The notes under the pieces: generated by a model
Seen by the model: the letters and a program-made list of their open reading frames with translations, nothing else
What the model was told of the DNA's origin: nothing
The model's database searches: none
Program-made: the position numbers and the translations under genes
In this document: piece after piece, positions 6,947 through 57,308 of the stretch
Numbering within the stretch: the first letter of the stretch is position 1
Layout of the letters: the number at the start of each line of letters is the position of its first letter
Assembly: GCF_004785955.1 (NCBI RefSeq)
Contig: NZ_SJER01000004.1
Location: 248,001-312,000, forward strand
Length of the DNA: 64,000 bases
Reading direction: 5' to 3'
From: Halostella litorea
GTDB taxonomy: Archaea > Halobacteriota > Halobacteria > Halobacteriales > Natronoarchaeaceae

Positions 6947-7357
6947 CGCCGCGGCGCCCCGCCGGTTCATCTCCGCCGTCCGCGGTCCGGGACCAAGTTA
7001 AAACAAGATTATAATTGGAGTAATTGTACGAACTTTAATCATGATTTCCGGTTGAAACGGTAATCGCAGGTCACGACCCGATACCCGGCCGAAATGGCGT
7101 CGAAACCGCCAATTCGGTGTAATCGGTCCGCGGTCGATCGTTCGAAGACCGCTCCGACTCTCACCCGAGGATATCACACAAAATATCGCGCCTCAGTGGT
7201 TGGATACCCGGAAACAGATCAACCAGCGCCCGAAATAATACCCTTAGAAACAAATTCGAAATTTCATATCTGCTGAACGAACAGGTCCGCCCGAAGTCGT
7301 CGGTGCCGGATGCGGTCCGACGGGGACCGCCGTCCCCGGCCAGTCACCGCGGCACGG
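6947..7357. other. 410-bp intergenic stretch between convergent genes, with AT-rich islands
   Basis: No gene is supported here. AT-rich islands at about 6995-7045 and 7190-7275 stand out against the GC-rich background. A 60-codon open frame (7094-7276) has no recognisable features. A stem-loop lies at 7321-7338, just past the dgoD stop. Confidence 0.5.
7321..7338 (-). terminator. Candidate stem-loop downstream of dgoD
   Basis: CGGGGAC and GTCCCCG form a perfect 7-bp stem with a 4-nt loop, 20 nt past the dgoD stop codon. There is no T-run, so a terminator role is only a suggestion. Confidence 0.3.
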
Positions 7358-34728: not shown

Positions 34729-35214
34729 CTAGTCCACGTACTCGTACCCCCACTCGGACAGCGTCGCCGCGATGGCCTCGGCGTCGGCCGTCGCCACCAT
34801 CGCCTCGCGGACGTCTAACTTCTTCAGGTCCTTCTCGCGGATGTCCAGTTCGTCGGCGACGGCGTCCATGATCGCGTCCTCCGCCGCGGAGTACTCGTCC
34901 CGGAGGAAGAACTGGTGGACGTTGTCGCGGTCCTCCTTGACCCGCGAACGCCGGAGGACCCACGGGATCTCCGTCGGTTCGTCGTCCCCGTCGTCGCTGT
35001 TGCCCGCATCGTCGGTGTCGTCGGTCGCGTCGTCGTCTCCTCCTCGTGACTGGTCGCGGTCGTCACGCTGTCCGCGGCGGTCGGCCCGCTCGTTCGTCGA
35101 CGGTGACTCCGCGGTCGACTCCTCCGCCGGGACCTCGGGCTCGCCTTCGGCTCCCCCGTCGTCGGGCTCCACAGGGTCGTCGGCGAACGGGTCGTCGCCG
35201 GCTCCGGACTTCAT
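34729..35214 (-). CDS. Acidic ParA-operon partner protein (putative centromere-binding/adaptor)
   Basis: A 161-residue protein with a long disordered Asp/Glu-rich first half (residues 1-85) and a compact C-terminal part starting IPWVLRRSRVKEDRDNVHQFFLRDE and ending ISEW-like (TLSEWGYEYVD). The basic RRSRVKEDR patch may contact DNA. Its ATG overlaps the parA stop by 4 bases, so it is translated with parA. By position it would be the ParB-equivalent of this partition module, but no ParB, ribbon-helix-helix or known HTH motif is evident. The function is inference. Confidence 0.6.
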   Translation of the reverse strand: MKSGAGDDPFADDPVEPDDGGAEGEPEVPAEESTAESPSTNERADRRGQRDDRDQSRGGDDDATDDTDDAGNSDDGDDEPTEIPWVLRRSRVKEDRDNVHQFFLRDEYSAAEDAIMDAVADELDIREKDLKKLDVREAMVATADAEAIAATLSEWGYEYVD

Positions 35215-36059
35215 TCGAACTCACCCTCGATTCCGGCCGCGAGGTCGTCGTACTTCTCCAGGGTCTCCAGTTCGTACTCGCCGTTGGGCTCGCGTTCGTC
35301 CTCCAGCACGCCGTAGGCCGAGGTGCGGTGGTCCCACATGTTCTGCATCAGGCTCGCCCGCTCCCTGAACACGACCGGCAGGTCGAAGTCCGACGCCTTC
35401 AGTTCCTCCAGCTGTGTCTCCTGGGTGTTGGTGCGCTTGAACCCCACCGGCACGACGCCGAGCACGCCGACCTGGATGCCGACTTCCTCCTCCAGGCCGG
35501 TCACCAGGTCGTCGAGTCCGCGGATGCTCAGCGCGCCCTTCCCGGATAACTCGACTGGCAGGAGCACCGACCGCGTGGCGAAGATGGCGTTGTTCAGCGC
35601 GTCCCCCGGCGTCGCCTGCGGGTCGCAGATGATCACGTCGTAGTCGCCCGGCACGTCGTTCTCCCGGAGCACCCGGAGCAACTGCTCGTGTTTCGGCCAC
35701 TCGTAGTCGTCGTCCGGGTGCATGTCCTCCTCTATCTCCGCGGCCTTCATCAGGTTCCGCGTGAGGTTCTCCAGCATGTTGTGGCTCGGGATCACGTCGA
35801 CCCCGGCCTCGTCGGTCTCCCGGATCAGGTCGCGGAACTCTCCCTTCGGCCGTCCGATGAGGTGCCGGACGAGGTTGTCGGCGGTGCCGTCCGACCGGTC
35901 GTCGTCCACCTCGAACAGGTAGCTCAGGCTCCCTTCCTGCGGGTCGAGGTCGATGCAGAGCACGTCGTGGCCGCGCCGGGCGTGCGCGACGGCGAGGTTT
36001 GCCGCCGTCGTCGTCTTCCCGACGCCGCCGGCCTCCGAGTACGTCGTGTACGTGATCAT
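35211..36059 (-). CDS. parA: ParA/Soj-family partition ATPase
   Basis: A 282-residue ParA-type ATPase: P-loop AGGVGKTTTAANLA (about residues 10-23), Walker A' LCIDLDPQEGSLSYLF, Walker B VIICDPQATPGDAL and PVELSGKGALSIRGL. The signature lysine of the deviant Walker A (KGGxGKT) is Ala here, which is unusual for the family. It is the first gene of a two-gene operon with the acidic partner. Upstream lies a 13-bp iteron array that overlaps its promoter, consistent with centromere plus autoregulation. Confidence 0.88.
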   Translation of the reverse strand: MITYTTYSEAGGVGKTTTAANLAVAHARRGHDVLCIDLDPQEGSLSYLFEVDDDRSDGTADNLVRHLIGRPKGEFRDLIRETDEAGVDVIPSHNMLENLTRNLMKAAEIEEDMHPDDDYEWPKHEQLLRVLRENDVPGDYDVIICDPQATPGDALNNAIFATRSVLLPVELSGKGALSIRGLDDLVTGLEEEVGIQVGVLGVVPVGFKRTNTQETQLEELKASDFDLPVVFRERASLMQNMWDHRTSAYGVLEDEREPNGEYELETLEKYDDLAAGIEGEFE

Positions 36060-36066
36060 GACCGGT

Positions 36067-36362
36067 CAGTCGCACTGATGGGTCATAAATCATGGCTATA
36101 CTTGACAGTGTTACTGAACAGTCACACTGACCAGTAATACTGTGTGGTGTTGCTGATTGGTGGATCTGGACAGTCGTCCGGGCCCTACAGACTGCCCGGG
36201 GATACTGTCGCTGTCGAGGTGCAGTCTTGTGGTTTTGACTGTTCCGTTGGGCTGACTGAGCGAACGTACTGTCGAGTATCGCTGCCCAGTTGGACTATTG
36301 CGTTACACTGGCTAGTCAAACTGACCAGTTACACTGTTCAGGATGTCTGGTCAATGCTACTG
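36067..36362. repeat. 13-bp palindromic iteron array upstream of parA (candidate parS/centromere)
   Basis: About 23 consecutive 13-bp units with core CAGT-N3-ACTG and a 2-bp spacer. Units start at 36067 and every 13 bp to 36210, then, after a 1-bp phase slip, at 36222 and every 13 bp to 36352. Perfect palindromic cores are at 36067, 36106, 36119, 36132 and 36326; most others keep the ACTG half. The units at 36080 and 36093 are degenerate and hold the parA TATA-like sequences (ATTTATGA, TATAGCC). The repeat is too short and the spacing too tight for CRISPR. Confidence 0.85.
36084..36091 (-). promoter_or_regulatory. parA TATA box inside the iteron array
   Basis: ATTTATGA on the minus strand lies 25-32 nt before the parA ATG (36059), in the degenerate unit of the array, with an intact iteron at the predicted transcription start. 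Confidence 0.5.
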
Positions 36363-36444
36363 ACTACACCCTCTCGATACGGCCCGTCCCGGGAGGGCTT
36401 ACCCGCCCCGGTGGGGAGTCCCCGACCGCGGTCCCGGGGGAGTA

Positions 36445-36515: not shown

Positions 36516-37697
36516 ATGCCAGGGGACGTCTTCGGCCCGGCGGAGTACGAGCGACGGATCGAACGGACGAAAGAGCGGATGCGCGAGGAGGGGCTGGACG
36601 CGCTGGTCGTCTCGGACCCGGCGAACATGAACTACCTCTCGGGGTACGACGGCTGGTCGTTCTACGTCCACCAGGCGGTCGTCGTCACGGCCGAGCGCGA
36701 CGAACCGGTGTGGATCGGGCGCGGCCAGGACTCGAACGGGGCCCGCGCGACGACGTGGCTCTCGGAGGAGAGCATCCACTCCTACAGCGACGACCACGTC
36801 CACTCCCCGTACGACCTCCACCCGACCGACTACTTCGCCGAGGTGCTGGAGGCGCTGGACGTCGAGGACGGCCGGATCGGCGTGGAGATGGACGCCTACT
36901 ACTTCACCGCGAAGGCGTACACGCGGCTCCAGTCGAACCTGCCTGAGGCGGAATTCGAGGATGCGACGCTGCTGGTCAACTGGGTGCGCGCGGTCAAGTC
37001 CGACGCGGAACTGGAGTACATGCGACAGGCCGCACGCATCTCCGAGAACGCGATGGCCGCGGGGCTCGACGCCGTCGGCGAGGGCGTCCCCGAGTACGAA
37101 GTCGCGGCGGAGATATACGACGCGCTGATCCGCGGCACCGACGACTTCGGCGGCGACTACCCCTCCATCGTCCCGCTGATGCCGTCGGGCGACCACACCG
37201 GCACGCCCCACCTCACGTGGACCGACAGGCGTTTCGAGGAGGGCGACCCCGTCATCATCGAACTGTCGGGCTGCCGGCACCGCTACCACTCGCCGCTCGC
37301 GCGGACGACGTTCGTCGGCGACCCGCCCGAGAAGCTGGCCGAGACCACCGACATCGTCGTGGAGGGGCTGAACGCGGCGCTCGACGCGGTCGAGCCGGGC
37401 GTCACCTGCGAGGAGGTCGAGGCGGCGTGGCGCGACGTGATCTCGAGCTACGGCATCGAGAAGGAGGAGCGGATCGCGTACTCGATGGGCCTGGGCTACC
37501 CGCCGGACTGGGGCGAACACACCGCCAGCATCCGGCCGGGCGACACGACGGAACTGGAGGAGGGCATGACGTTCCACATGATCCCGGGCATCTGGCAGGA
37601 CGACGTGGGCACCGAACTGAGCGAGACGTTCCACGTCACCAGCGACGGCGCGGAGGTGCTGGCCGACTTCCCGCGGGAACTGTTCTCGACGCGGTGA
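36516..37697 (+). CDS. doeA: Ectoine hydrolase-like M24 protein (DoeA/EutD type)
   Basis: A 393-residue creatinase-fold protein whose N-domain (DALVVSDPANMNYLSGYDGWSFYVHQ; VWIGRGQDSNGARATTWLSEE; SPYDLHPTDYFAEVLE) matches the ectoine hydrolase pattern as I recall it. In the catalytic domain the M24 metal ligands are replaced: Glu249 and Pro260 for the two Asp, Ser-Met-Gly-Leu-Gly (323-327) for the His loop, Ile-Pro-Gly (356-358) for Glu-Pro-Gly; only Glu370 remains. DoeA/EutD is known to lack the metals and opens the ectoine ring to N-acetyl-diaminobutyrate. The ATG at 36516 follows AGGAG. Neighbouring M20 deacylases, a class III aminotransferase and a BCCT transporter fit the pathway. The alternative is a general M24 pseudo-peptidase. 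Confidence 0.72.
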   Translation: MPGDVFGPAEYERRIERTKERMREEGLDALVVSDPANMNYLSGYDGWSFYVHQAVVVTAERDEPVWIGRGQDSNGARATTWLSEESIHSYSDDHVHSPYDLHPTDYFAEVLEALDVEDGRIGVEMDAYYFTAKAYTRLQSNLPEAEFEDATLLVNWVRAVKSDAELEYMRQAARISENAMAAGLDAVGEGVPEYEVAAEIYDALIRGTDDFGGDYPSIVPLMPSGDHTGTPHLTWTDRRFEEGDPVIIELSGCRHRYHSPLARTTFVGDPPEKLAETTDIVVEGLNAALDAVEPGVTCEEVEAAWRDVISSYGIEKEERIAYSMGLGYPPDWGEHTASIRPGDTTELEEGMTFHMIPGIWQDDVGTELSETFHVTSDGAEVLADFPRELFSTR

Positions 37698-56018: not shown

Positions 56019-57308
56019 CTACTGGGAGACGGCTTCGAGCAGCCCGTCGGCGGCGGCCTCCGCGTCGTAGGGGCCCATGAAGTTGTTCCCGATAGCGCTC
56101 TTGCAGTCGTTCATGGCTTCGGGTTCCACGGCGAGGCCGTGGGCTATCGTCGGCGGGTAGGCGTCCGAACTCGTGAGGTCCTCGTAGGTCATCGCGAGGA
56201 AGTCGGTCAGTTCGCTCGAATCGATGTCGGTCCGGAGCGGCACGGAGCCCTTGAGGTTGTTGAACGCGACCTGGGCCTCCTTCGTGCCGATGAACTTCTG
56301 CCACGACACCGTCTTCTCCCGCGTCGGGTTGCTCCCCGGCGTGACGAAGGCGTCGACGTGGTAGAAGTACAGCCCCTCGGTCCCCGGGAACGGGATCCAG
56401 TCCCACTGCTCGCCGTAGTTGAACTCGTCGTCGGCGCGGAACATCCCGTACAGCCAGTTCCCGCCGTGGATGCACGCCGCCTCGTCGGCGATGAGCTTCT
56501 GGGCGGCCTGCGTGTACCCGATGGACGACGCGTCCTCGGTGATGTAGTTCTCCTGGATCTCCTGCAGCGTTTCGAGGGCGTCGATGACGGCGCCCCTGTC
56601 ACCGTCGCCCGCGATGAAGTCCTCGTACGCCTCGACCCCGCTCTGGCTCGTGAGGATCTGCGCCCACGTCTGGAGCCCGAGGAACGGGGCCTGCATCCCG
56701 TGGGCGAACGCCGTGTAGTCCGTCTCCGAGTCGATGGTTTCGAGCGCGTCGACGAAGTCCGGCACGCTCCCCAGGCTCGACGGGTCGATGCCGGCCTCCT
56801 CGAACGCCGCCGTGTTGTAGAACAGGTTGTTCAGTCGGTGTGACCCGATCGGGACGGCGGGCATCTTGTCGTTGAACGTACAGAGGTCGACGACCCGGTC
56901 CTGCATGCTGTCCTTGTAACCCTCCGCTTCCCAGACGTCCTCCTCGAGGTCCATGAGGCTCCCGCGGTAGCGTTCGAGGTTCTTGCCCGGCCAGTTGGCG
57001 AACGCGCCCATCGGGTTCGAGTTCGTCAGCCGGCGGAGCACCGTCGTGTTCAGCTCGACGTTCCCCTGCCCGCCGACCGCCTTGATGTTCGAGTCGAGGT
57101 CGGGGTACTCGTCGTTGAACAGTTCGGTGAGCTCGTTGATCGCGTCCGAGCCGTCGCCGCCCGTCCATCCGTGGAGCACCTCCAGCGTCTCGTCGCTGCT
57201 CTCGTCGCCGCCGAGACAGCCGGCCGCGCCGGCCGCGACCGCTCCCGCGATACCACCGAGATACGCACGTCTGTCGATACCGGCCACCTGATCGTTACTA
57301 TCGACCAT
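56019..57308 (-). CDS. xacG: Pentose ABC transporter binding lipoprotein, XacG type
   Basis: A 429-residue family 1 (CUT1) binding protein with a TAT-type signal (GIDRRAYLGGIAGAVAAGAAGC) and lipobox Cys, then EVLHGWTGGDGSDAINELTELF. It leads the five-gene operon binding protein - permease - permease - ATPase - ATPase, the order of Haloferax xacGHIJK, which imports xylose and arabinose. Neighbouring Gfo6-, FAH- and semialdehyde-dehydrogenase-type genes support pentose. The ATG at 57308 follows a TATA box at leaderless distance; an ATG two codons upstream is possible. Confidence 0.82.
   Translation of the reverse strand: MVDSNDQVAGIDRRAYLGGIAGAVAAGAAGCLGGDESSDETLEVLHGWTGGDGSDAINELTELFNDEYPDLDSNIKAVGGQGNVELNTTVLRRLTNSNPMGAFANWPGKNLERYRGSLMDLEEDVWEAEGYKDSMQDRVVDLCTFNDKMPAVPIGSHRLNNLFYNTAAFEEAGIDPSSLGSVPDFVDALETIDSETDYTAFAHGMQAPFLGLQTWAQILTSQSGVEAYEDFIAGDGDRGAVIDALETLQEIQENYITEDASSIGYTQAAQKLIADEAACIHGGNWLYGMFRADDEFNYGEQWDWIPFPGTEGLYFYHVDAFVTPGSNPTREKTVSWQKFIGTKEAQVAFNNLKGSVPLRTDIDSSELTDFLAMTYEDLTSSDAYPPTIAHGLAVEPEAMNDCKSAIGNNFMGPYDAEAAADGLLEAVSQ

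Follow-up and report, generated by a model that had tools for sequence, protein, structure and literature searches.

A 13-bp tandem repeat array beside parA as the probable centromere of haloarchaeal plasmids

In the window, which denotes the whole stretch of 64,000 nucleotides of Halostella litorea DNA analysed here, a gene for a ParA-type ATPase is followed by a small second gene, hereafter the partner, and preceded by a tandem array of 13-bp units (Table 1). The genes beyond parA and the partner lie on the opposite strand, and the operon consists of two genes; the DoeA-like ectoine hydrolase gene on the far side of the array is outside the partition module. The ParA protein possesses a nucleotide-binding domain of the ParA/MinD type, with Pfam matches to AAA_31 (E 4.7e-21) and CbiA (E 1.3e-14) and profile matches in the PDB to Soj/ParA-type chains. 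Elsewhere in the window, positions 816-1519 hold a tandem duplication whose period is 366 bp and whose copies are 84% alike.

Table 1. Positions of the genes, the repeat array and the associated features (window coordinates unless a contig is named)
Feature	Position	Strand	Basis or remark
Partner, 161 aa, proposed centromere-binding protein	34729..35214	-	overlaps parA stop by 4 nt
Coding stretch for the C-terminal 84 partner residues, including the strand-like segment VHQFFLR	34732..34983	-	
parA, 282-aa ParA-type ATPase, Walker A SEAGGVGKTT	35211..36059	-	Pfam AAA_31, CbiA
Array block A, 12 positions 13 bp apart, reaching the parA start codon	36061..36216		autocorrelation, core scoring
TATA-like TTTATGA of the parA promoter, within the array	36083..36089	-	sequence; 24-30 bp before parA start
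Inter-block stretch of 38 bp, poor in-register matches, 1-bp register shift	36217..36254		core scoring
Array block B, 9 positions 13 bp apart, core as in block A	36255..36371		core scoring
DoeA-like ectoine hydrolase, divergent neighbour across the array	36516..37697	+	Pfam M24; NCBIfam DoeA below cut-off
Satellite of the window's genome (G000), five positions in 13-bp register	G000:C3:241345-241406 (L045:7345-7406)		about 6.6 kb to the left of the window

The array, whose core is ACTG-N2-CAGT (equivalently CAGT-N3-ACTG), spans positions 36061-36371. The autocorrelation of 36061-36375 is 0.47 for lag 13 and between 0.39 and 0.43 for its multiples 26, 39, and 52; most other lags give 0.18-0.28, and lags 17, 30, and 56 give 0.32-0.34. 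The chain score of the array is 129, as against a mean of 66.6 (SD 3.7, maximum 79) for 300 dinucleotide shuffles. When the window was cut into 182 non-overlapping tiles of 350 bp, 13 was the best period in a single tile, that of the array, and z exceeded 3 at period 13 in one tile only, the one at 36051 (z 15.3). Autocorrelation, shuffles, and tile survey thus confirm the 13-bp repeat array that an earlier note on this DNA had placed beside parA, with some adjustment of its details. Instead of about 23 units, the positions in register number nearer 21 (12 in block A and 9 in block B), 18 of which score at least 5 of 8 bases. The single 1-bp phase slip described there corresponds to the difference in register between the two blocks; continuation of the second register across the inter-block stretch gives scores of 5 (at 36216), 2, and 1 of 8, and an out-of-register match of 7 of 8 bases lies within that stretch at 36238. 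Its five perfect CAGT-N3-ACTG cores were counted correctly and are all located within the array (36067, 36106, 36119, 36132, and 36326), a sixth occurring in the window at 56398, and three perfect ACTG-N2-CAGT cores are found in the array at 36113, 36126, and 36320. It had also been stated that the two worst units overlap the TATA box, which holds for the unit at 36087 (2 of 8, the worst of block A) but not for the unit at 36074 (6 of 8), both of which are overlapped by TTTATGA. A tandem-repeat finder, proposed in the same note as a check, did report period 13 (TRF on the window), but as two short fragments of the array and nothing longer; autocorrelation was needed to show the array.

The distribution of this ParA and of the repeats beside its gene was surveyed across haloarchaeal genomes. 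ParA matches at E<=1e-50 are present in 234 of 392 genomes of the order, and at 1e-40 in 26 of 246 genomes drawn from the phylum, all 26 belonging to the window's order. The sample examined comprised 134 loci, namely 34 parA loci from genome searches and 100 chosen among the matches listed, with places whose upstream DNA ran off the contig end skipped (L018 was kept with 128 bp upstream). In each locus, up to 350 bp before parA was scored for the best of periods 7-30 and for z at period 13 (z13). The best upstream period was 13 in 113 loci and 26 in a further 12 (125 of 134 together), and z13 exceeded 3 in 118 and 5 in 93 of the 134; the arrays were looked for beside parA, so the link between array and parA arises partly by selection. 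Upstream of the three closest parA orthologues (L008, L009, and L010), z13 is 12.1, 11.0, and 9.0, and the periodicity that had been set beforehand as a check on close orthologues is therefore present. Among the nine loci with another best upstream period, L030, L038, and L057 have a strong downstream array, and L024, L028, L029, L036, L089, and L107 have none, L107 and L036 still keeping an upstream z13 of 4.1 and 3.2. Three of these (L024, L028, and L029) are among the 17 loci whose partner carries the segment VHQ and have weak upstream arrays (z13 0.6-1.9). A repeat site at the operon, as in ParABS-type systems, is accordingly found upstream in 125 of 134 loci and downstream in three further loci.

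In 86 of the 134 loci, a separate conserved palindromic word, GTCTGAC, starts 41-45 bp upstream of parA, just ahead of the TATA position; it is common to many partner groups with differing array cores. In the region from -350 to -90 a single locus has it, and 251 kb of sequence following the parA start contain it 17 times. It is absent from the parA promoter of the window.

A gene directly downstream of parA, again as in ParABS-type systems, is present in 134 of 134 loci, in the form of an ORF of at least 70 aa that overlaps or abuts the parA stop, with a gap of -4 in 110 loci, -1 in 22, and +2 in 2. The partner of the window consists of an N-terminal MKSGAGDDPFAD, an acidic linker, and a conserved C-terminal domain of about 75 aa; this domain was recognized by eye in the partner translations of the 134 loci, and DPF, SPF, or NPF occurs close to the N-terminus in 104 of them. 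In a Pfam scan of ten partners (that of the window and nine others), none exceeded any family cut-off, nor did any of nine partners scanned against NCBIfam, and a profile of 16 partners compared with solved structures in the PDB gave nothing better than E 0.2. The same Pfam, NCBIfam, and PDB searches detected no kinship with SegB, for which the PDB set may lack a chain.

Structural models of the partner are weak, with a mean AlphaFold pLDDT of 49.7 for the whole protein and 61.9 for the C-terminal domain alone. Foldseek with such a weak model returned nothing at E<=0.001, and the low-score fold matches of the domain model were only helical domains of the KAP1 and UBA types. By eye only, the domain looks strand-helix-helix. 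A ribbon-helix-helix fold was tried and found no support, with an hhalign probability of 2% against RHH_1 proteins; that comparison included one poorly extracted RHH row (L161) and 15 shuffled controls, one of which scored unexplainedly high. Given weak models and no informative fold match, a ribbon-helix-helix fold of the partner is no more than tentative.

The repeat word itself differs from lineage to lineage. Repeat cores were obtained with a circular 13-state model trained separately on each of the 134 loci, and the cores by lineage include ACTG..CAGT, CAAA-based, TATAGCTATA, TTCA-based, TAGCTA, ACTAAC-based, and AGCCAGCTGGCT. The core word thus varies across lineages, and the 13-bp spacing is the common feature. 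The scope is broader than the earlier description supposed, its CAGT/ACTG word being replaced by others in other clades. Palindromy of the per-locus repeat, evaluated against column shuffles, reached p<=0.05 in 72 of the 134 loci only.

Differences in the core tend to be accompanied by differences in a strand-like segment of the partner. The segment VHQ tends to accompany the core ACTG..CAGT (ACTGNNCAGT), RLT a CAAA-based core, QVP the core TATAGCTATA, and TVQ the core TCTTAGA. Among locus pairs less than 50% identical outside the segment, which were drawn from few lineages, the 71 pairs sharing x1-x3 have a mean core similarity of 0.713, compared with 0.395 for the 4853 others. The loci are not independent: at 50% identity, the 108 loci with z13>4 form 9 clusters, with 59 loci in the largest. 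Among the 36 pairs of these 9 clusters, the highest core similarity (0.74) belongs to the sole pair with VHQ as the majority segment in both; the link is weakened because the runner-up pair (0.73) shares no segment. A ranking of single columns also failed to single out the segment, the best columns being x -4 and x 30, with x1 third. These comparisons are suggestive of a correspondence, or code, between partner segment and repeat core.

Arrays are also found away from the promoter. In 14 of 21 loci with the QRP segment, which come mostly from the genus of Haloarcula, the 350 bp that follow the partner give a z13 above 4, compared with 0 of 113 among the non-QRP loci. The downstream core in QRP loci is mostly TAGCTA and resembles the upstream units of the QRP clade and its near kin, its similarity to upstream cores being 0.61 for QRP, 0.62 for QQP, and 0.57 for QVP, as against 0.30-0.43 for five other groups. 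In pHH400 (L157), for example, the array is picked up in windows from 7291 onward, the end of the partner being at 7226, and in pNG700 (L156) it is picked up in windows from 6091 onward, past the IS6 transposase gene that follows the partner. In both plasmids, the upstream array is short and lies beside a tyrosine recombinase gene that ends about 100 bp upstream of parA (L157 4665-5900; L156 2664-3899).

Further copies, referred to as satellites, were sought with a two-unit pattern in the window's genome and three others of its genus (G000, G001, G003, and G004). With at most two mismatches, all 22 of the matches listed fall on the parA contig, and satellites distant from parA account for 4 of the 22. 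With at most three mismatches, 15, 18, 12, and 11 matches are listed in the four genomes, and the 3-mismatch matches are partly chance because the reversed pattern also gives 5, 3, 10, and 2. Chaining of positions in fetched stretches yields satellites of 5 (G000), 5 (G003), 4 (G001), and 3 (G004) positions, and G001 has another satellite in the form of a two-unit match; the G000 and G003 satellites fit the two-unit pattern only at three mismatches, the level at which chance matches occur. The satellites of G000 and G003 start within the final 18 bp of one gene, extend across the gap to the same convergent gene, and lie 1.7 and 2.5 kb from orc1/cdc6 genes that are 92% identical to each other. 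The other three satellites are situated between genes (ORFs read by eye), one each in G001 and G004 beside the same gene pair. In a sliding scan for arrays, the short satellites of L146 and L149 went unflagged, and isolated weak windows were flagged at other places (L045:14071, L148:10321, and L158:7111).

These positions bear on the view that the array is only a long operator, with the partner acting as an autorepressor of the parA operon and partition, if any, proceeding via another site. That view would account for the covering of the parA promoter by the array in the window and for the upstream location in most loci, and it is at odds with the downstream arrays of the QRP loci and with the two satellites at convergent gene ends; moreover, a repeat run of about 300 bp far exceeds the need of a repressor. 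An operator alone is accordingly improbable, and a centromere is favoured over it because of the arrays away from the promoter and the satellites on the parA contig.

Haloarchaea are polyploid and contain several large replicons each. The module of array, parA, and partner is present on many of their large plasmids and sometimes on chromosome-sized contigs. This ParA occurs in 180 plasmid records, and among plasmids of cultured strains the module is carried by pNRC200 (Halobacterium NRC-1), pHH400 (Haloarcula hispanica), and pHME132 (Haloferax mediterranei). Some parA genes lie on chromosome-sized contigs, with strong arrays in L022 and L115 and weak arrays in L024, L028, and L029. One contig, G001:C5, carries two parA modules (L009 and L014) that differ in partner segment and array core, and may be a merged replicon. 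In a viral collection, a search by ParA alignment gave four matches, three of them full-length; the window ParA alone gave no match there. No match was found in the phage records. Three contigs of the viral collection (L151-L153, 47-54 kb) carry the parA-partner module with a best upstream period of 13 (z13 3.2, 6.8, and 4.8), and, by eye, the core TCTTAGA together with the partner segment TVQ.

The window itself is part of contig C3, which has 383,975 bp of a 3.75 Mb assembly; rRNA was looked for in this assembly and none was found, so C3 could not be placed by rRNA. The contig carries one orc1/cdc6 gene, one of eight Cdc6_C matches in the genome. The presence of this gene on C3, the proximity of one satellite to an orc1/cdc6 gene, and the fact that short tandem repeats are typical of iterons would agree with an iteron-type replication origin or a cluster of Orc1-binding sites. 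No Orc1 gene borders the main array, however, that of C3 being about 39 kb away, and no annotated replication initiator is located within 4-6 kb at four named plasmid loci in an incomplete gene table, where one gene near L158 encodes an unspecified AAA family ATPase. Moreover, array cores tend to follow the partner, and an origin is very unlikely.

The ATPase differs in one respect from the deviant Walker A box KGGXXK[S/T]. The signature lysine is found in none of the 134 ParA proteins, being replaced by alanine in 132 and by serine in 2, with a Walker A of SEAGGVGKTT or near variants, and it is present in the six other ParA-like matches of the window's genome. Because the lysine is absent from all 134, the motor may have a mode of action different from that of textbook ParA. 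The same feature invites a comparison with McdA, whose Walker A is given as SGGQGKT in a review table (PMC9178275), and whose type 1 form in beta-cyanobacteria is described as lacking the signature lysine in PMC8262871. A ParA-like protein of this kind could position a non-DNA cargo, for instance a protein complex in the way that McdA moves carboxysomes, with the array serving only in regulation. Long DNA arrays beside the genes, the many plasmid records holding this ParA, and the confinement of close two-unit matches, among the matches listed, to the parA contig all speak against such a role, and it is extremely unlikely.

The reading that best fits the loci compared is that the array is the centromere (parS-like) of the array-parA-partner module, to which the partner binds, and which serves as operator too where it covers the promoter. 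We consider this highly probable on comparative sequence grounds, and the earlier proposal of a centromere is supported by the recurrent 13-bp beat, the constant partner, the promoter-distant arrays, and the satellites. As to mechanism, we infer that the conserved C-terminal domain of the partner would bind the array, probably as one dimer on each 13-bp unit, with successive dimers then winding along the DNA. The N-terminal peptide, held at the tip of a long acidic linker, would probably contact ParA and stimulate its ATPase, and nucleoid-bound ParA would then move or space the plasmids. Where the array lies over the parA promoter, binding of the partner would repress the operon, and satellite arrays on the parA contig may be secondary loading sites. 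A broader proposal is that these arrays constitute a distinct class of archaeal centromere, in which a fixed 13-bp beat carries a lineage-specific word read by an unannotated family of binding proteins, giving an incompatibility code per megaplasmid, and in which the ParA motor works without the signature lysine; this remains tentative, and slightly less than even weight is given to it.

The presence of the module on pNRC200, pHH400, and pHME132 makes active partition directly testable in cultured haloarchaea. Additionally, the module could supply partition cassettes for stable archaeal vectors, could explain plasmid incompatibility, and could allow the study of ParA chemistry without the signature lysine. 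If the broader proposal is true, the lineage-specific repeat word would give each haloarchaeal megaplasmid its own segregation identity.

Among known partition systems, type Ib modules of bacterial plasmids, such as ParF-ParG-parH and delta-omega-parS, are characterized by a short ParA, a small centromere-binding protein, and repeats that cover the promoter. The haloarchaeal module resembles them in its short ParA without an N-terminal DNA-binding domain, in the small second gene directly downstream, and in an array of short repeats that covers the operon promoter and is likely both centromere and operator. It differs from them in its 13-bp units, in a partner matching no family, in the replacement of the signature lysine by alanine or serine, and in the restriction of its ParA matches, in the 246 genomes drawn from the phylum, to the window's order. 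Among the papers listed in searches of the open-licence literature, no description of a haloarchaeal plasmid centromere or par site was found, and ParA and ParB do not appear as whole words in PMC2841640 and PMC7776575.

Archaeal systems offer further points of comparison. In SegAB of Sulfolobales, according to the available part of PMC12284271, SegB recognizes 13-bp palindromes, TCTAGASTCTAGA, which are dispersed around the chromosome, and tandem arrays are not described in that part. The same source indicates a shared arrangement, a ParA-type ATPase with an overlapping partner gene that encodes an archaeal DNA-binding protein there and a proposed one here, and palindromic sites, some upstream of the operon and others at further places in the replicon. 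Unlike SegAB, the array of the window consists of tandem units with the core ACTG-N2-CAGT instead of sites of the TCTAGASTCTAGA type. In the AspA-ParB-ParA system of Sulfolobus pNOB8, AspA binds a site upstream of its own gene and, by spreading, covers more than 200 bp, as stated in the accessible parts of PMC5120986 and PMC9178275. Within what those parts convey, both are archaeal partition systems of plasmids with a small DNA-binding protein, here a proposed one, and pNOB8 differs in having three proteins and one 23-bp palindrome, as against two genes and about 21 tandem units in the window. Finally, the secondary replicons of Deinococcus radiodurans have direct repeats upstream of parAB with a parS-like function; as far as the available portion of PMC7671480 describes it, that system differs from the haloarchaeal module in being bacterial, in its ParB partners, and in its other repeats.
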